Source: a virus. From it: DNA of 21,178 nt. Under the pieces are notes generated by a model. The model searched no databases and was not told the origin of the DNA. It was given only the letters and a program-made list of their open reading frames with translations. The position numbers were made by a program, and so were the translations under genes. Position 1 is the first letter of the stretch. The number at the start of each line of letters is the position of its first letter. This document shows positions 3,841-21,178 of the stretch, one piece after another. The stretch spans positions 1 to 21,178 of the IMG/VR virus record IMGVR_UViG_3300018424_000311. The stretch is one strand, 5' to 3'.

Positions 3841-4224
3841 ATGAAAACATTATTTGAAGTCATGAACATTGACTTAGCACAAGAATATACCAAAGAACGC
3901 AAACTAGCAGTAGTAGAAAAACTTGCAACTGAATTAGGTGCAGAACTAGAAGAAGAAGTACGTGCAGCGATTGCAGAATTAGATATTCCAGAATCAGATG
4001 AACGTTATCATTGGGTTCAAAAAATTGGACGTATTATGGGTGCAGACTTGTTAACTATTGGCAAAGTACAGCCAGAAAACATGTTAGCAGCGTCTTCTCT
4101 CAGTGTTGAAGATTTTCAAGAAGCAGTAAAAGTTGCAGTACAAGGTGCAAATGATTTGAACCAGTATACTATTGCAGCAGAAACAGCAATCAAAAACGAC
4201 ACAATTTCTGAAACAATTACATGA
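3841..4224 (+). CDS. Unrecognised acidic helical protein, 127 residues
   Basis: A good ribosome site (AGGAG, then six bases) precedes the ATG. I do not recognise the family. The first 50 residues are rich in Glu, Lys and Ala and look helical (VVEKLATELGAELEEEVR). A middle part reads HWVQKIGRIMGADLLTIG, and the tail is polar and Thr/Asn-rich. It has no membrane segment, signal peptide, Cys cluster or nucleotide-binding loop. Its stop overlaps the start of the glycosyltransferase gene (ATGA at 4221-4224), which implies translational coupling and a shared function or timing with that enzyme. Confidence 0.75.
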   Translation: MKTLFEVMNIDLAQEYTKERKLAVVEKLATELGAELEEEVRAAIAELDIPESDERYHWVQKIGRIMGADLLTIGKVQPENMLAASSLSVEDFQEAVKVAVQGANDLNQYTIAAETAIKNDTISETIT

Positions 4225-4814
4225 TAAAACTTGCAATTTGTATTCCATCACGGGATACAGTTCATGCAGGATTTGCATTAAGTCTCTCTAAGATTACAAG
4301 TAAACTTACAGAACATAATGTTGAACACACTGTATTGTTTAATCTAGGAACAGTAATACCTCAACAACGTAATAGTCTAATAGACGAAGCGTTAGATTGG
4401 GGTGCTACACATATACTGTGGTTAGACAGTGATATGCATTTGCCGTCTAACACCGCAGAAATCTTATTGTCTCACAATAAAGATATTGTAGCAGCAGCAT
4501 ACAGCACAAGAGTTCCGCCTTACAAAAGTACTGCATTTGTTGATGCAGATAATTTAGATAACAGATTATCTGCCATCACCGACTTACACAAAGTGTTTGC
4601 AGTTGGTATGGGATGTATGTTAGTTTCAACAGAAGTCTATAAAGTTTTAGGAAAACCTTGGCATACATATCTATACAATAATGATACACAAGATTTGTCA
4701 GGCGAAGATATATATTTTTGTAAATGTGCAAACGATGCAGGAATTGATGTGTATGTTGATGCAAGTTTAAGCCAAGAAATTGCACATTACGGTACAAAGT
4801 CATTTAGGTTATAG
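4221..4814 (+). CDS. GT-A fold glycosyltransferase, 197 residues
   Basis: The start opens with KLAICIPSRD, the first strand of a family-2-like GT-A nucleotide-sugar domain. VIPQQRNSLIDEAL follows, then the metal-binding DxD motif in ILWLDSDMHLP (about residues 68-78), then VGMGCMLVS and GEDIYFCKCANDAGI, which supplies the ED pair usual before the acceptor site. A late His (IAHYG) fits a further metal ligand. At 197 residues it is a minimal, soluble, catalytic-only form with no membrane anchor. Members transfer a sugar from a nucleotide-sugar to a glycan, lipid, protein or modified base; the donor and acceptor cannot be read here. It overlaps the upstream gene by 4 bases and is followed one base after its stop by the repeat-protein gene. 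Confidence 0.8.
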   Translation: MIKLAICIPSRDTVHAGFALSLSKITSKLTEHNVEHTVLFNLGTVIPQQRNSLIDEALDWGATHILWLDSDMHLPSNTAEILLSHNKDIVAAAYSTRVPPYKSTAFVDADNLDNRLSAITDLHKVFAVGMGCMLVSTEVYKVLGKPWHTYLYNNDTQDLSGEDIYFCKCANDAGIDVYVDASLSQEIAHYGTKSFRL

Positions 4815-4815
4815 A

Positions 4816-7800
4816 ATGAATATATTTGAAAAGTTTGAAAGATACGGTCAAAAAACATACAACGGACAAGATGTATTAAAAAATCATTTTTTACAAATCT
4901 ATCCAATACATTATACTGACAATTGCGACGACGAGACTGTTGCAACACAATATGCTGATAAAGCAGATTACGTTTGGATTGTTAACAAAAATATTAATGT
5001 ACTTAGAACTTTTCCTTGGCACTTTAAACCAACCAAAGAACAATTAAATAAAAAACATGTATTTCCGTATGTTTATAAAAGCAGCAAAAGAATTAAAAGT
5101 TGGGAATATGCAAAACTTATTCCTACTAAAGTTGAATATACAGGTGTAATTGAACACAAAAATATTGCAGCAATCTATGATGTATATTGTGGCAAAGATG
5201 TGTTTGATGTATTTTATTTAGGTTTAGAAACAGACGAACTATTTACACAAATACAAGAACGTGCTCCACATGCTCGTGTTGTTAGTTCGCATAAACAAGC
5301 ACAAGACATGTCTACTACGGATATGTTTTGGCTTGTGCCTAATGATATTGAATTGGGAAAGTTTTTTAAATTTAGTTATCGTCCTGATGACTGGAGTCAC
5401 AAATTTGTGCATGTGTTTGGAAATGGTAATGTAGGAGTGTTTGATGGTATTGCATTATTTCCAAAAGCATACAACCCTACTGACAAAGAATTACAACACA
5501 GATTTTATGCAGATAAAAAAACAGTATCATTAATTGCAAGTACTCCTAAAAAATATCCTGTGTATAACTTTGAAACATTTGAAGAATATCAGTTAGCGTT
5601 AGAAAAAGAAAGCGAGTTGTTTTGGTATGTTCCAACAGACGTTCAAGACGTAGTTGATTTAGATTTGTATTTTGATCATCATAATCAATATGATCGACGT
5701 ATTAATCATGTGTTTTTAAATGATAATGAATATGATGGCGTAGTACTGTTTAGTAAACATAGTCCTATAACTGAAAAAGAATTTAATCACAGATTTATTG
5801 CAAACAAAAAAGAACACCCGGAGGTATATAGCCGGCCAAAAAAGTTTGATCAGTTTGTGATCAACAACTACGCTGATTACAAACTGGCAATGGAGCGTAG
5901 TACTACTGAAATGTTCTGGGGTGTGCCCGATGATGTTGAAGTTTCAGATGACTTTGATTTTGACATTTATTTTACACATCATAACACATACGATAGAAAT
6001 ATTACACATGTGTTTGCTAATGGTAAAACATACGACGGTATTGTGCTGTTTAGTAAAAATGTCGAAGTAATTGAACGTGAAGTTGATTATAGATTTTACG
6101 CTGAAAAGAAAGAATGGAATATTGTTGCAAGCCATCCAAAAATCTTTCCTGTGTACAAAATTGACACGTATGATGAATACTTAGAAGCATTAAAGAAAAC
6201 ACCAAACGAATTGTTTTGGATGAGTAGTTCAAACATTCAAATGCTTACAGACATTTATAATGTTTATATTAGTCATCACGATAGAAATTTACGTAAACAA
6301 AATCATGTGTTTTTACATCAAAACAACGAAGGTGTATCATTTAATGGAATGATTTTGTGTAGTGTACACACGCCTTTAACACAAAAAGAAGTTGAATATA
6401 GGCATCCAGTAAATCGCATAGAACACACTAATATTGTAAGTAAAAATAAAAGATATGATCATTTCAATATTGAAACGTATGAGGATTATTTACACGCATT
6501 AGAAACCAGTGAAACTGAAATGTTTTGGATGGATTCTCCAAACATAGATACAACTGATTTTAATTTTAAAATGACTTTTGATTTTGAAAACGAATATGAT
6601 CGAAAGGAAAATCATGCTTTTGTACACATGGTAGATGGAAAAGAATATTACAACGGATTGTTTCTTTGCAGCAAACACAAACCTTTAACTAAAAAAGAAG
6701 TTGAATATCGCCATATTGCAAATGCAAAAGAATGGGACATAATGGCAAGTTTTGCTGTGTTTTATGAAAGATTTATTATTGAAACTTATGACGATTATCT
6801 TCGTGCATTAGATAACAGCGAAACAGAAATGTTTTATGGGTATAGCGAAAACATTGATTGTAGAGACTTTGCATTTGATCATTACTTTACGCATGATAAC
6901 GAATATGACAGAAAAATAAATCATAACTTTATTCATAAAGTTAACGGTAAAGAATACCGTAATGGAGTATTTTTGTTTAGTAAACACAGTCCAGTTACAC
7001 AAAAAGAAATAGAACATAGACATATTGTTAATGCAAAAGAATGGAATATAGTTGCAAGTAGGCCTGTTTGGTATGATAGAATTGTAATTAATAATTACAA
7101 AGATTATAACATGGCATTAGAATCGTCTAAGACTGAAATGTTTTGGGGTATTCCTAGTGATGTAGAAGTTGATATAAATTTTGAATTTGATTATTACTTT
7201 ACTCATGATCAAGTTTTTGAAAGAACTACAAATCATGTATTTTTAAATGATAAAAATTATGATGGAATAATTTTGTTTAGTAAACACAGTCCGGTAACAG
7301 AGAAAGAAATAAAATCAAGATTTTTAGTTAACAAAAAAGAACACAATGTCATAGCAAGTTATCCTAAACAATTTAGCAAATTTGTTATAGAAACTTATAA
7401 TGATTATTTAAATGCTCTTGAAACTAGTAAAACAGAAATGTTTTGGGCTACTACTAATAATATAAAAATTGCACAAGACTTTGATTTTAATTTTTATTTT
7501 AGTCATCATAACACTTATGACAGAAATATAAATCATGTTTTTGCGCACGAAGTTAATGGCAAAAAACATTACAATGGTTTATTTTTGTTGTCAAAAAATG
7601 TACCGCTTACACAAAAAGAAATTGAATTTAGAACAATAGCAAATCGTAAAGAATGGGATATTGTTGCCAGTGGTTCTGTTGAATATGATAAATTTAAAAT
7701 AAAAAATTACCAAGACTATTTAGAAGCATTTAAGAAATCAAAAACAGAAATGTTTTGGATGATACCAAGCGAAGTTGTTGTAGATAACTCATTTAATTTT

Positions 7801-8676
7801 AATACTTATTTCACACATGATCAAATATTTGAAAGAAAGACACATCATGTTTTTAAAAATGGTGATGCATGGGACGGCATTTCACTTGTGAGTAAACATG
7901 CCAATGTTACTGAACGTGAAATTAATATGAGATTTCTTACAAATAAAAAACAATATAATATTGTTGCAAGTACTCCAAAATTATATGATATTGTGTTTAT
8001 TAGCAAAGACGAAGAACATGCGGACAAGAATTACAAAGATTTGTTAATAAGATTTCCAAGAGCAAAGCGTGTACACGGTGTTGAAGGTATTCATAATGCA
8101 CACATTGCAGCAGCAAAACTTTGCAACACAGATATGATTTGGATTGTTGATGCAGATGCAGAAATTGTTGACAATTTTAATTTTGATTATTATGTTCCTG
8201 CATATGATCCTGATAGTAAAAATGCTGTGCATGTTTGGAAAAGCAAAAATCCAATTAATGGTTTAATTTATGGTTACGGTGCAGTCAAATTGCTTCCTAG
8301 AGAACTAACACTAAATATGGATACAACTACTACAGATATGACAACAAGCATTGGTAAATCATTTAAAGTTGTAAATAGAATCAGTAACGTTACTAAATTT
8401 AATACAGACGAATTTAGTGCATGGCGTAGTGCATTTAGAGAATGTGTTAAACTGTCGAGTAAAGCAATTAACGGTCAACTAGATGAAGAAACTGAATTTA
8501 GGTTAAAAGTTTGGTGTACAAGAGGTAAAGATAAACCTTTTGGTCTTGCAGCAATCAATGGTGCTATTCAAGGCAAAAAATATGGTGAATCTGCAACTAG
8601 TAAAGATCAACTTGGAAAAATCAACGACTTTAACTGGTTGTTAAATGAATTCAATAAGTTTAAAGATAGTTTCTAA
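4816..8676 (+). CDS. Giant repeat protein of degenerate glycosyltransferase-like units, 1286 residues
   Basis: I start it at the ATG at 4816, one base after the preceding stop and 7 bases after an AGG; an in-frame ATG at 4780 would overlap the neighbour by 35 bases and add a poorly fitting leader. About residues 150-1090 hold nine tandem repeats of 98-104 residues (the last 128). Each begins (T/S)E(M/L)FW and passes through YDR...NHVF and (D/N)G(I/L/V)xLxSKHxPxTxKE(I/V), ending in KEW(D/N)IVAS. The C-terminal unit has TDMIWIVDADAEIVDNFNF: the same TxMxW entry but with an intact DxD-like DAD. The internal units replace it with PxD, SPN, TNN and similar. A more distant copy (ADYVWIVNKNI) sits near residue 51. 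I infer tandem duplication of a GT-A-like domain with decay of the metal site. The role could be a large glycan-handling enzyme or a structural scaffold. The last 36 bases overlap the opposite-strand Nudix gene. Confidence 0.85.
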   Translation: MNIFEKFERYGQKTYNGQDVLKNHFLQIYPIHYTDNCDDETVATQYADKADYVWIVNKNINVLRTFPWHFKPTKEQLNKKHVFPYVYKSSKRIKSWEYAKLIPTKVEYTGVIEHKNIAAIYDVYCGKDVFDVFYLGLETDELFTQIQERAPHARVVSSHKQAQDMSTTDMFWLVPNDIELGKFFKFSYRPDDWSHKFVHVFGNGNVGVFDGIALFPKAYNPTDKELQHRFYADKKTVSLIASTPKKYPVYNFETFEEYQLALEKESELFWYVPTDVQDVVDLDLYFDHHNQYDRRINHVFLNDNEYDGVVLFSKHSPITEKEFNHRFIANKKEHPEVYSRPKKFDQFVINNYADYKLAMERSTTEMFWGVPDDVEVSDDFDFDIYFTHHNTYDRNITHVFANGKTYDGIVLFSKNVEVIEREVDYRFYAEKKEWNIVASHPKIFPVYKIDTYDEYLEALKKTPNELFWMSSSNIQMLTDIYNVYISHHDRNLRKQNHVFLHQNNEGVSFNGMILCSVHTPLTQKEVEYRHPVNRIEHTNIVSKNKRYDHFNIETYEDYLHALETSETEMFWMDSPNIDTTDFNFKMTFDFENEYDRKENHAFVHMVDGKEYYNGLFLCSKHKPLTKKEVEYRHIANAKEWDIMASFAVFYERFIIETYDDYLRALDNSETEMFYGYSENIDCRDFAFDHYFTHDNEYDRKINHNFIHKVNGKEYRNGVFLFSKHSPVTQKEIEHRHIVNAKEWNIVASRPVWYDRIVINNYKDYNMALESSKTEMFWGIPSDVEVDINFEFDYYFTHDQVFERTTNHVFLNDKNYDGIILFSKHSPVTEKEIKSRFLVNKKEHNVIASYPKQFSKFVIETYNDYLNALETSKTEMFWATTNNIKIAQDFDFNFYFSHHNTYDRNINHVFAHEVNGKKHYNGLFLLSKNVPLTQKEIEFRTIANRKEWDIVASGSVEYDKFKIKNYQDYLEAFKKSKTEMFWMIPSEVVVDNSFNFNTYFTHDQIFERKTHHVFKNGDAWDGISLVSKHANVTEREINMRFLTNKKQYNIVASTPKLYDIVFISKDEEHADKNYKDLLIRFPRAKRVHGVEGIHNAHIAAAKLCNTDMIWIVDADAEIVDNFNFDYYVPAYDPDSKNAVHVWKSKNPINGLIYGYGAVKLLPRELTLNMDTTTTDMTTSIGKSFKVVNRISNVTKFNTDEFSAWRSAFRECVKLSSKAINGQLDEETEFRLKVWCTRGKDKPFGLAAINGAIQGKKYGESATSKDQLGKINDFNWLLNEFNKFKDSF
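5323..8142 (+). repeat. Tandem ~300-bp coding repeats
   Basis: The (M/L)FW-type anchor codons begin at 5323, 5617, 5911, 6211, 6520, 6829, 7138, 7438, 7750 and 8134. The intervals are 294, 294, 300, 309, 309, 309, 300, 312 and 384 bp, all multiples of three. Two subtypes are visible: shorter units with an NHVFxNxxxYDG loop (5617, 5911, 7138, 7750) and longer ones with an added NGKxYYNGLFL-type hairpin (6520, 6829, 7438). The DNA sequences have diverged, so the array is old and not a fresh slippage product. Confidence 0.85.
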
Positions 8677-9072
8677 TTTTTGTACATTATTCTTATTACG
8701 CAATGTACTTAACAACCCTTTGTGTAGTGGTTTTGGCCAGTTATTAAAACTTACCCAAGCATAACCGTTGTGTTCGTCGTTTAATACTGGAATAAATTCT
8801 TTGCTTACAACACACAAATAAGTATGAAATTCAAAATGAGAATCGTTGCTAATAAAAGTTTCTAGTGGAATAGTTTTTACAATAGATGGAAGTGTTCCTA
8901 TTTCTTCTTGCATTTCTCTTTTCAATGCTTCCCAAGGAGTTTCACTATCTTCGTTTGTACCGCCTACTAATCCCCAAACATTATTTTGTTTACTTTGTGC
9001 TCTATGCAAAAGTAAAAATCGATTAGTATCTAATGTATAAAAAAGTGCACCACTACAAATAATTTTCTTCAT
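8641..9072 (-). CDS. Nudix hydrolase, 143 residues
   Basis: A complete Nudix box is present: G38, E44, R52-E53, E56-E57 and G59, spaced as GX5EX7REUXEEXGU, with Thr in place of the final aliphatic residue. VWGLVGG just before it corresponds to the WxFPGG stretch of MutT-like enzymes. The family hydrolyses nucleoside diphosphates linked to another group (oxidised or excess dNTPs, ADP-ribose, nucleotide sugars, dinucleoside polyphosphates), using Mg bound by the EE pair. The substrate here is unknown; it need not be orthologous to T4 NudE. The gene starts 8 bases after the gp15 stop and is the last of the leftward gp14-gp15-Nudix operon. Its 3' end overlaps the convergent repeat-protein gene by 36 bases. 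Confidence 0.88.
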   Translation of the reverse strand: MKKIICSGALFYTLDTNRFLLLHRAQSKQNNVWGLVGGTNEDSETPWEALKREMQEEIGTLPSIVKTIPLETFISNDSHFEFHTYLCVVSKEFIPVLNDEHNGYAWVSFNNWPKPLHKGLLSTLRNKNNVQKLETIFKLIEFI

Positions 9073-18673: not shown

Positions 18674-19111
18674 ATGAAACAATATGCACAAGGCAAATTT
18701 ACACCAAAAAACCCTGACAAGTATGTAGGTGGTAGAACTCCAACTTATAGAAGCAGTTGGGAATTTGCTTTTATGCGTTTTTGCGACGAACATCCTAGTG
18801 TAAGTAAATGGGCAAGCGAAGCAGTAAAAATACCTTATAGAAATCCATTTACAGGCAAACACACAATTTATGTACCAGATTTTTTTATTGCATATGTTGA
18901 TGCTAACGGCAAACAACATGCAGAATTAATTGAAGTTAAACCAAGCAATCAAATGACAATGGAAAGTGCTGGACGTAATAAACGTAATCAAGCACATGTA
19001 GTTTTGAACAAAGCAAAATGGGAAGCAGCAAATGCTTACTGTAAACAAAACAACATCAAGTTTAGAGTTGTAAGCGAAAAAGATATTTTCCATACTGGTG
19101 GTAGAAGATAA
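18674..19111 (+). CDS. 4: Head completion protein gp4 with nuclease-like motif
   Basis: 145 residues, close to T4 gp4 (150). The shared pattern is KYxGGRTPTYRSSWE (E30), FMRFCDEHPSVSKWASE, IPYRNPFTGKHTIYVPDFF (P68-D69), then AELIEVKP (E87, K89). SSWE...PD...ExK is the layout of PD-(D/E)xK nucleases, as in TnsA-like and related proteins, so a DNA-cutting or DNA-binding activity at the filled head is plausible. In T4, gp4 acts after packaging to make heads competent for tail joining. It is tightly packed, one base after the previous stop. Its own stop (TAA) forms part of the late octamer for gp16. Confidence 0.85.
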   Translation: MKQYAQGKFTPKNPDKYVGGRTPTYRSSWEFAFMRFCDEHPSVSKWASEAVKIPYRNPFTGKHTIYVPDFFIAYVDANGKQHAELIEVKPSNQMTMESAGRNKRNQAHVVLNKAKWEAANAYCKQNNIKFRVVSEKDIFHTGGRR

Positions 19112-19114
19112 ATA
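19107..19114 (+). promoter_or_regulatory. Late promoter overlapping the gp4 stop
   Basis: GATAAATA contains the gp4 stop codon (TAA 19109-19111). The predicted start is near 19120. A TATAAT lies at 19124-19129 but has no -35 partner. The gp16 ATG is at 19141, with only a weak GGA before it. Confidence 0.6.
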
Positions 19115-19140
19115 ATAGTAGTATATAATGGAATATCTCT

Positions 19141-19620
19141 ATGACTAAAAAACTCGAAGATTTATTAAACTTACCCGATGCAAAAGAAATGGCCGAAGAG
19201 AAGCCAAAGCCTGTTGCGGCACAACAAGATACTTTTAGAGATATCGAAGAACTTGATAAAATAGCAGCAGCATTGCCTCAAGTTAAAGGTCTTGGTGAAT
19301 TAGCAGATCGAGAACTAAATGAAGTTGCAGATAAAGCAATGAGTGCATACGAAGATTTAATGGACCTAGGCATGAATGTTGAAAGTAGATACAGTGGTAG
19401 GGTATTTGAGGTCGCAGGAACAATGCTTAAAACCAATCTAGATGCCAAGGTTGCAAAACTAGATAAAAAACTAAAAATGGTTGAATTACAACTTAAAAAA
19501 CAAAAAATGGATCAAGACAATTTTGGAGATAACGGTGGATTCTCCGAAGGCGAAGGTTATGTTGTTACAGACAGAAACAGTTTGCTAGAACGTCTCAAAG
19601 GTCTCGATAAAGATAAATAG
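19141..19620 (+). CDS. 16: Probable small terminase subunit gp16
   Basis: 159 residues, close to T4 gp16 (164). An N-terminal acidic stretch (LEDLLNLPDAKE) is followed by TFRDIEELDKIAAALP, then a helical core (ELADRELNEVADKAMSAYEDLMDLGMNVESRYSGRVFEVAGTMLKTNLDAKVAKLDKKLKMVELQLKKQK), which is an expected coiled-coil oligomerisation region, and a short polar tail. In T4-like phages gp16 forms a ring that binds DNA ends and stimulates the gp17 motor. The large subunit is not in this window. The last codons GAT AAA TAG make the late octamer of the next gene. The assignment rests on length, helical pattern and context more than on a strong motif; a scaffold or other coiled-coil virion protein is the alternative. 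Confidence 0.65.
   Translation: MTKKLEDLLNLPDAKEMAEEKPKPVAAQQDTFRDIEELDKIAAALPQVKGLGELADRELNEVADKAMSAYEDLMDLGMNVESRYSGRVFEVAGTMLKTNLDAKVAKLDKKLKMVELQLKKQKMDQDNFGDNGGFSEGEGYVVTDRNSLLERLKGLDKDK
19612..19619 (+). promoter_or_regulatory. Late promoter overlapping the gp16 stop
   Basis: GATAAATA is formed by the final Asp-Lys codons plus the first two bases of the TAG stop. It is followed by GTATATAATGGGATCC, close to the leader of gp16. The predicted start is near 19625, 16 bases before the ATG at 19641. Confidence 0.6.
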
Positions 19621-19640
19621 TATATAATGGGATCCTTACA

Positions 19641-20189
19641 ATGAAAAAGATTAAAGAATTTATAACTGAATCGCATAGAACATATCCTTGGAAGATTGGC
19701 GTTGCTGGTCCGCTTCCTGAAGGTTGCGAAGAACAGATCAAAAGATGCATGGAAAAATGGACAGTTGCAAGTTGGACAAAAGGTAAGAAAACTCCTATCC
19801 AAGAACGTCCGTTAGATTTTCCACAACTAGAAAATATTGATGTGCAGTATTGGGATGCTGAAGTACGTTATCCTACAACAAGAGATGCTGTACAAGAATA
19901 CATTGCACAATGCTGCAATGTTCCAGCAAGTCACATTATTGTAAGACATCCTGAAGAGCCACAAGAACTTTACCAGAAAGAAAAAGATGATGGCCCTTAT
20001 GAAACAATATTAACTAAAGAAGACATGGGCGGCGAAAGTGCGCAAAAAGATGCAGGCGAATCACGCATTATGGATCTATTAAAAGAACTTGAAGCAGCAC
20101 GTAAAGAAAAAGACGATGCGTCCAGTGGTTTTAAAATGGAAGCAACAAAAGAAGAACCACAAAATAACCAAAGCGTAGTGGGGAACTAA
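19641..20189 (+). CDS. Probable encapsidated internal protein with capsid-targeting N-terminus, 182 residues
   Basis: The first ten residues, MKKIKEFITE, match the capsid-targeting sequence of T4 internal proteins (MKxxxEFIxE; T4 IPI and IPIII begin MKTYQEFIAE and MKTYQEFISE). They end in I-x-E, the cleavage signal of prohead protease gp21, so processing after Glu10 is predicted. The next 95 residues look like one compact domain: PWKIGVAGPLPEGCEEQIKRC, TPIQERPLDFPQLENIDVQYW and PTTRDAVQEYIAQCCNVPASHIIVRHPEEP. The C-terminal 70 residues are charged and look unstructured. I do not know the function of the domain. It is read from its own late promoter between terminase and an acidic protein, consistent with head morphogenesis. 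A non-virion role cannot be excluded. Confidence 0.75.
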   Translation: MKKIKEFITESHRTYPWKIGVAGPLPEGCEEQIKRCMEKWTVASWTKGKKTPIQERPLDFPQLENIDVQYWDAEVRYPTTRDAVQEYIAQCCNVPASHIIVRHPEEPQELYQKEKDDGPYETILTKEDMGGESAQKDAGESRIMDLLKELEAARKEKDDASSGFKMEATKEEPQNNQSVVGN

Positions 20190-20190
20190 A

Positions 20191-20664
20191 ATGCAAGATA
20201 AAACAATGCAAGACATATTGTCTAACTTTTTAAAAGCAGGACGCCTAACAGAAACCGAAGTTACAGAATGTGGCATGAGCGAAGGCGGAATGGAAAGTGG
20301 TGTAACACTTAAAACAAGCAGTGCAAGTGAAATGGCAGAAATTTTAAGAGCACTAGCAGGTGTAGAGTCAGGTAGTAAACCGGATATGCCTCCTATGGAT
20401 GCACCAATGGATATGCCAATGGATATGCCTATAAAAATGAAACTTCCAGCACCGGAGCCAGAAGAGGAACTGGAATCTTATGGCGACGAAATGGACAATG
20501 AACCAGAAGAAGAATACATGGATACAGATGATGTACTTCCGAGTGGCGACGACTTACACCGCAAAAAGCCATTAAAAGCAATGCGTGTAAAAGACCCAGC
20601 AGTTGAATCATCAATTAAAGATCGTTTGTGGGCAGCACTAAACGAAAAGAAAGCAGAGTTATAA
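20191..20664 (+). CDS. Acidic Met/Pro/Asp-rich protein, 157 residues, unknown
   Basis: It begins one base after the preceding stop; GTGGGG is a poor ribosome site, so coupling is likely. It has three parts. Residues 1-57 are helical (MQDILSNFLKAGRL...SEMAEILRALAGVE), and a single L-T-E (20-22 region) could be a prohead protease site. Residues 64-85 are a short repeat of PMDMP/APMDMP type, with acidic runs after it (EPEEELESYGDEMDNEPEEEYMDTDD). Residues 120-157 are basic and then helical (HRKKPLKAMRVKDPAVESSIKDRLWAAL). This looks like a core or scaffold-like head protein by composition and position, but I cannot name it. An intrinsic terminator follows. Confidence 0.75.
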   Translation: MQDKTMQDILSNFLKAGRLTETEVTECGMSEGGMESGVTLKTSSASEMAEILRALAGVESGSKPDMPPMDAPMDMPMDMPIKMKLPAPEPEEELESYGDEMDNEPEEEYMDTDDVLPSGDDLHRKKPLKAMRVKDPAVESSIKDRLWAALNEKKAEL

Positions 20665-20722: not shown

Positions 20723-21178
20723 ATGAGTTATTTTTCAGCAGAACATATAGACTATCTATATTCACAAGTAAACAATCCATTAGAAGAAACAGTATCTATA
20801 TGTCACGAATGTTATAAACACGTTCCTGCATTAAAGTATGAAATTGACAATAAACTTTACATGGTAAAACATTGTGAAGAACACGGCACACATAGATACG
20901 TAATTGAAAATGATTATGAATTTTACAAGAGTTTAAATTGCAGTTATCAGTCTTATCATTTTAACGATTATGTAATGATTGAAGTAAGTGACAAATGTAA
21001 TTTAGATTGTCCTCATTGTTATCATATACCCAATAACAAAATTAAAGATCCTACAGTAGACACACTATTAAATCAAATTAAAATTATTGATAAACAACTA
21101 AGTCCTACACTACAAAAGAAAGGTTGGACTGTTTGTTTTGCTGGCGCTGAATCAACTTTACACAAAAACTTTACAGAA
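20723..21178 (+). CDS. Radical SAM enzyme of the COG1964-like type, 3' partial
   Basis: An open frame of 152 codons runs off the window. The canonical cluster motif CNLDCPHC (Cys92, Cys96, Cys99; CX3CX2C) binds the 4Fe-4S that cleaves S-adenosylmethionine; Tyr100 follows, as in most members. A G-A-E at 141-143 is the GGE motif in modified form. N-terminal CHEC (27-30) and CEEHG (51-55) make a CxxC...CxxHG pattern. I know this from COG1964 radical SAM proteins, the group including archaeal tetraether lipid synthase. Substrate unknown. It begins just after a terminator, with TATAAGTA at 20711-20718 as the only promoter-like octamer. I see no Shine-Dalgarno. Confidence 0.82.
   Translation, partial: MSYFSAEHIDYLYSQVNNPLEETVSICHECYKHVPALKYEIDNKLYMVKHCEEHGTHRYVIENDYEFYKSLNCSYQSYHFNDYVMIEVSDKCNLDCPHCYHIPNNKIKDPTVDTLLNQIKIIDKQLSPTLQKKGWTVCFAGAESTLHKNFTE

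Follow-up and report, generated by a model that had tools for sequence, protein, structure and literature searches.

Capsid-targeting tags (CTS) have reportedly been described on variable, non-essential internal proteins of bacteriophage T4. The T4 proteins gp24, IPII and IPIII are substrates of the prohead protease gp21, and gp24 is cut after E10. In the T4 record, both IPII and IPIII open with MKTYQEFIAE↓A (here and below the arrow marks the known or presumed cleavage point). Mutagenesis of the T4 tag assigned mainly targeting to residues 4 and 7 and processing to residues 8 and 10, and Asp at position 10 stops processing and leaves targeting unaffected (review, PMC9026906).

In this study, we report the analysis of a protein carrying a tag of this type, encoded in a virus record of 21,178 bases (the whole stretch analysed, referred to as the window) which contains genes for the tail, the neck and packaging from a phage of the T4 superfamily. 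The phage is plausibly marine, and its relatives are aquatic metagenome contigs. The ORF concerned and its neighbours are the following:

19641-20189, plus strand: tagged-protein ORF, 182 amino acids, matching PHROG_14802 ('virion structural protein') and with homologues in related phages
19641-19670, plus strand: T4 CTS-like tag MKKIKEFITE, residues 1-10, identified by its register match to T4 IPII/IPIII, its conservation and its statistics
19668-19673, plus strand: predicted gp21-type cleavage point between Glu10 and Ser11 (I-T-E↓S), suggested by the major capsid proteins (MCPs) of relatives and the mass of the 121Q MCP
18674-19111, plus strand: gp4-like head completion nuclease (PHROG_218, 1.5e-43; Pfam PF08722)
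19141-19620, plus strand: probable gp16-like terminase small subunit (weak PHROG_445 match; precedes the terminase large subunit in relatives)
20191-20664, plus strand: adjacent acidic ORF, 157 amino acids, pI 4.3, with an early [IL]-x-E-[ST] in most homologues and a PA5oct counterpart in virions

The tagged ORF opens with ATG 20 nt after the end of the gp16-like ORF, MKKIKEFITES being encoded at 19641-19673 on the plus strand, and no better in-frame start was found upstream of 19641 in the window; the encoded protein begins with MKKIKEFITESHRTYPW. The PHROG_14802 profile matched most of the protein (E 6.2e-6, residues 1-158 on profile positions 1-165 of 179). Searches with PHROG and Pfam profiles gave no toxin, nuclease or effector family, no Pfam family matched, and no solved structures related by sequence were found. 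Residues M1, K2, E6, F7, I8 and E10 are identical to those of T4 IPII and IPIII, and the two tags are in register at both the targeting (4, 7) and the processing (8, 10) positions, while the start of T4 IPI (MKTFKEFTST) does not match. Judged by its residues, the ORF carries a T4-type tag together with an I/L-x-E cleavage signal, here ITE. The sequence-only reading, which had described an MKxxxEFIxE-type tag of T4 internal proteins ending in an I-x-E prohead protease signal, is thus confirmed as an observation, both by this register and by the positional conservation given below.

Besides the register of the first ten residues, the likeness to T4 IPII and IPIII consists of the I/L-x-E signal and of the fact that the orthologues are virion proteins. 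The mature domain of the window protein is unrelated, acidic, conserved and syntenic within a packaging operon, whereas the T4 internal proteins are basic and plastic. Its pI after residue 10 is about 4.9 (4.4-5.4 for the mature proteins of the family) against 8.9-9.5 for T4 IPI-III, which argues against DNA binding; it is therefore not a small basic DNA-associated mature protein like IPI-III, and its gene is a conserved, syntenic core gene instead of a highly diverse accessory one. Mature-part homology was likewise not found, since profile alignment (hhalign) of the tagged family with 14 T4 proteins gave probabilities of at most 1.4% and nothing past the tag. Homology beyond the tag to the T4 internal proteins, gp67, gp68, gp22, gp2, gp53, gp3, gp15, gp16, gp24, gp14 and inh was discarded in this way; the best, non-significant alignments (IPII and gp24) begin exactly at the tag. 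The T4 vertex protein gp24 (MAKINELLRE↓S) has the same loose register pattern, defined below, with L-x-E↓S at residues 8-11, but it is an HK97-fold capsid protein and its homology with the tagged protein ends at the start.

Conservation was counted in 54 non-redundant homologues. Position 4 was F, I or L in all 54 and position 7 was I, Y, L, F or V, both targeting positions thus being hydrophobic in 54/54, as in the T4 tag of about 10 residues. Position 8 was L or I in 53/54 and position 10 was E in 53/54, so that the gp21 signal I/L-x-E at 8-10 is present in 53 of the 54, Glu10 being kept throughout the aquatic jumbo-phage clade of the window; the signal is absent from some distant clades. 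Positions 3, 5, 6 and 9 vary. The family consensus start is MRSFxEILTES, and the exact 'EFI' of the window copy owes something to luck. The first scan gave 80 homologues, of which about 70 were retrieved with the internal peptide TKEDMGGE, without using the tag, and therefore its conservation is not an artefact of selection by tag-based searching.

The gene order in the window is a gp19-like tube gene (16517), a second tube-like gene (17234), a small ORF (18307) and the gp4-like gene (18674), followed by the gp16-like gene (19141), the tagged ORF, the acidic ORF (20191) and a radical-SAM ORF (20723). The terminase large subunit comes directly after the radical-SAM gene in the near-identical contig L005 and directly after the acidic ORF in other relatives. 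The tagged gene belongs to the syntenic core and lies between the terminase small and large subunits, beside gp4; it was found in hundreds of contigs and at least 50 isolate records; the order gp4, TerS-like, tagged gene is present in the window, 121Q, CBB, RaK2 and PA5oct. Around this packaging cluster, relatives carry either no insertion or other cargo genes (L034, L049). The radical-SAM protein (window 20723-21178, complete at 11083-12249 of L005) has an HMPTM zinc-ribbon domain and lies between the acidic ORF and the terminase large subunit. Homologues of the acidic ORF (20191-20664) are highly variable in length and share a short C-terminal piece, with a PHROG_24078 match in some contigs. 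Its early I/L-x-E sites were set aside as evidence and are suggestive only, being too common in acidic sequence and absent from several homologues. Almost the same leader, AGTATATAATGG.AT, precedes the gp16-like ORF (19105-19161) and the tagged ORF (19612-19643), and it looks like either a late promoter of the T4 type or a common translation leader.

Orthologues were found in purified virions of three phages, in data sets which, as read here, do not tell head from tail and give no N-termini, with tail genes lying nearby. CBB_210, the CBB orthologue, was detected with 13 unique peptides and 60.5% coverage (PMC5259590), and in the PA5oct record an ESI-MS/MS note is attached to both the orthologue and the gene downstream of it. 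The third case is phAPEC6 gp270c, listed at 16.20 kDa with 4 peptides and 41.1% (PMC7247149, Table 1). This is exactly the mass that 121Q gp557 has when started at its Met38, and the gene order matches, by which we map gp270c as an orthologue; it seems to be annotated with a late start, and therefore its N-terminal peptides would be undetectable in the published data. The members of PHROG_14802 in Rak2-like jumbo phages (CBB_210, 121Q gp557, RaK2 ORF047) are orthologous to the window protein by profile and gene order, but they share only about 22% identity with it, several lack Glu10 and their C-terminal tail is of the SAGFGKK type. Scans that used the Vibrio or the PA5oct homologue as a single query sequence gave no further relatives.

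At this distance almost all orthologues keep the hydrophobic helix, whereas the protease residue is less widely kept. Glu10 is present in 121Q (MNRLQQILTEK), CBB/GAP32 (MNKLQKILTEL) and Vibrio phage 2.275.O (MKDLNTILTES), and it is replaced by Asp in RaK2 (ILTDN), BF (FLIDL) and Hallingskeid (ILIDS), by Ala in XaC1 (ILTAL) and PA5oct (YYDAS), and by Ser in PHA46 (ILTSL) and Phosso (YLSSV). Orthologues lacking the tag had been named beforehand as one result that would speak against it; these seven phages go part of the way, since they keep the helix and lose Glu10. Therefore, the family as a whole cannot depend on trimming. The natural variation suggests that targeting is separable from processing. 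Atu_ph07 (NC_042013) had appeared to lack the tag, a loss which was discarded: the start of its gp113 is annotated about 29 codons late, and reading from an ATG further upstream, which has a good ribosome-binding site (GAGG), gives MKTLQDYLTESKK, so that the corrected protein opens with MKTLQDYLTES and has Glu10.

With respect to the protease, the search for gp21 recommended by the sequence-only reading was positive in the phage group: of the 10 records that were searched, 6 contained Pfam Peptidase_S77 (gp21), the remaining four being fragments, while none was seen in the window record, itself a 21-kb fragment. The MCPs of relatives have L-x-E↓S/T/A/N where gp23 is cleaved, namely MLTE↓SATSG in 121Q, LME↓SATNG in the Vibrio phage, LAE↓SATAG in the relative G001, LVE↓NASAG in PA5oct and LSE↓SATAG in most aquatic contigs. 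Cutting the 121Q MCP at LTE43↓S gives a computed mature mass of 37.24 kDa, which fits the SDS-PAGE estimate of 37 kDa (PMC5646251). The L-T-E of the tag is therefore the type of signal apparently used by this protease lineage. If the tagged protein is trimmed after Glu10, CBB virions would give LTPEYSYR, the peptide starting at residue 11, and not ILTELTPEYSYR.

The remaining part of the protein has the following features:

19683-19946, plus strand: predicted ferredoxin-like domain (beta-alpha-beta-beta-alpha-beta), residues 15-102 (AlphaFold2, pLDDT mostly 61-84)
20010-20045, plus strand: conserved linker motif LTKEDMGGESAQ, residues 124-135 (family alignment)
20061-20117, plus strand: predicted C-terminal helix, residues 141-159 (AlphaFold2 model)
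20163-20186, plus strand: C-terminal motif NNQSVVGN, residues 175-182 (family form N-x-K-[SA]-x-[IV]-G-x)

The AlphaFold2 model, built with 51 sequences, had a mean pLDDT of 65.5 (core about 75-84), with a disordered tail and a loose N-terminal helix which is not confidently packed on the domain (pLDDT 55). Foldseek against the PDB returned weak generic ferredoxin-like matches of the ribosomal protein S6 type, none below E 0.001; as a guide to function, so generic a match from a modest model was set aside.

Most family members end in N-x-K-[SA]-x-[IV]-G-x, with Q for K in the window copy. In scans of ORF ends in two partial genomes of relatives (G003 and G004), this motif was found in exactly two proteins each: the tagged protein and a gp67-like acidic prohead-core protein encoded directly upstream of gp21. 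In G001 it occurs on the gp67-like protein only, the tagged-protein copy having no tail; in the Vibrio phage it occurs once, on an unrelated ORF, and in the fetched stretches of 121Q, PA5oct and T4 it was absent from ORF ends. The majority of 54 gp67-like proteins end in the motif, most of the others having a STLNKLSKRAK-type tail. Some of the octapeptides (N-x-K-S-x-[IV]-G-x) are identical in the two proteins (NKKSVVGK, NTKSTIGS), although the gp67-like protein is long, acidic, of low complexity, encoded beside gp21 and gp22 and otherwise unrelated. We infer from these sequences that the octapeptide may be a docking motif common to both proteins.

On balance, we consider it somewhat probable that the tagged protein is a structural head protein of T4-superfamily jumbo phages, recruited by the prohead core and trimmed by gp21. 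The first ten residues would form an amphipathic helix of the capsid-targeting type, by which the precursor docks during assembly on a prohead core made of the gp22-like scaffold and the gp67-like core protein, and the short disordered C-terminal motif would probably bind that partner surface as well. In the clade of the window the gp21-type prohead protease would then cut after Glu10, and the acidic 19.7-kDa domain would remain in the mature virion. What we infer is that the protein lies inside the head, that both of its ends dock and that it is cleaved, and targeting followed by trimming is a reasonable prediction for this clade. It is rather doubtful, though a serious candidate, that the protein belongs to the portal vertex, the neck or the packaging accessories, joins the particle outside the prohead core and keeps its helix uncut as a permanent docking element, Glu10 then being important for the helix and not as a protease site. 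The position of the gene between the terminase subunits, beside gp4 and near the tail tube genes, would suit such a protein, as would its core and not accessory character and the clades that lose Glu10 and keep the hydrophobic pattern. However, positions 8 and 10 are (nearly) invariant in the window's clade amid a variable stretch, the MCPs of these phages have an L-x-E↓S site too, the C-terminal motif recurs in a prohead core protein, and the model shows no confident packing of the helix against the domain.

A quite unlikely explanation is that the resemblance to T4 is fortuitous, the start being an ordinary amphipathic helix with a Glu, of a kind frequent among phage proteins. We defined two register patterns. 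The strict one is M[KRN]-x-h-x-x-h-[IL]-x-E, where h stands for a hydrophobic residue, and the loose one allows any residue at 2 and [ILVM] at 8. Their chance expectations per genome were 0.03-0.26 and 0.17-1.15, respectively; for this reason a single instance in a single genome would be unremarkable. It is the conservation across homologues that places the tag above chance, as it is position-specific even at about 22% identity and in phages of different hosts. Moreover, the loose pattern retrieved gp24, IPII and IPIII only from the T4 stretches that were scanned. On these two grounds chance was rejected as the leading view. In 121Q the loose pattern found only the tagged-protein orthologue and the gp22-like scaffold, in Vibrio phage 2.275.O these two and two others, in the partial or truncated G003 and G004 the tagged protein only, in G001 the tagged protein and one other, and in PA5oct one unrelated ORF. 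Other ORFs of G001 and of the partial G003 and G004 gave no strict match, and the tag as a general cargo signal within a genome is not supported; further tag-bearing proteins, proposed as something to look for, were thus generally not found in relatives, apart from the gp22-like scaffold of 121Q and Vibrio phage 2.275.O.

Finally, it was proposed that the protein is an effector which is injected and acts against the host or organises DNA, analogous to the T4 internal proteins but with a mature domain of a new kind. This is very improbable and was not borne out: the same tag does bring T4 IPII and IPIII into the head, and injection is described for IPI-type proteins (PMC3012670), but an acidic product without any effector-type family match, from a conserved core gene syntenic with packaging genes and with Glu10 replaced in several distant orthologues that keep the helix, fits better with a standard structural head part. 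In the prohead-core reading that we prefer, the presence of the T4 register on a conserved jumbo-phage structural protein suggests an older and more general targeting code. The tagged protein offers a testable route to how giant heads load internal proteins and is a candidate for the head or inner-body content of 121Q-type phages. An extension of that reading, which we regard as unlikely, is a client of the prohead core bound to the scaffold at two ends, through the N-terminal T4-type helix and the gp67-like C-terminal motif, in which the Asp10, Ala10 and Ser10 variants uncouple targeting from trimming and which could belong to the radiation-sensitive inner body of 121Q and phAPEC6.

Some further traits of these sequences were observed. 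Close homologues (L209, L210) lie within contigs binned in a Candidatus Neomarinimicrobiota MAG (Tara Red Sea); they are probably co-binned jumbo-phage contigs, and possibly a hint at the host. The window also encodes a 1298-amino acid ORF (4780-8676) with about ten degenerate repeats of roughly 100 amino acids (TEMFW ... HVF ... G..LFSK), adjoined by a glycosyltransferase-like ORF at 4221 with a weak Pfam Anp1 match, and a NUDIX hydrolase gene on the minus strand (8641-9072) lies within the tail-gene region.
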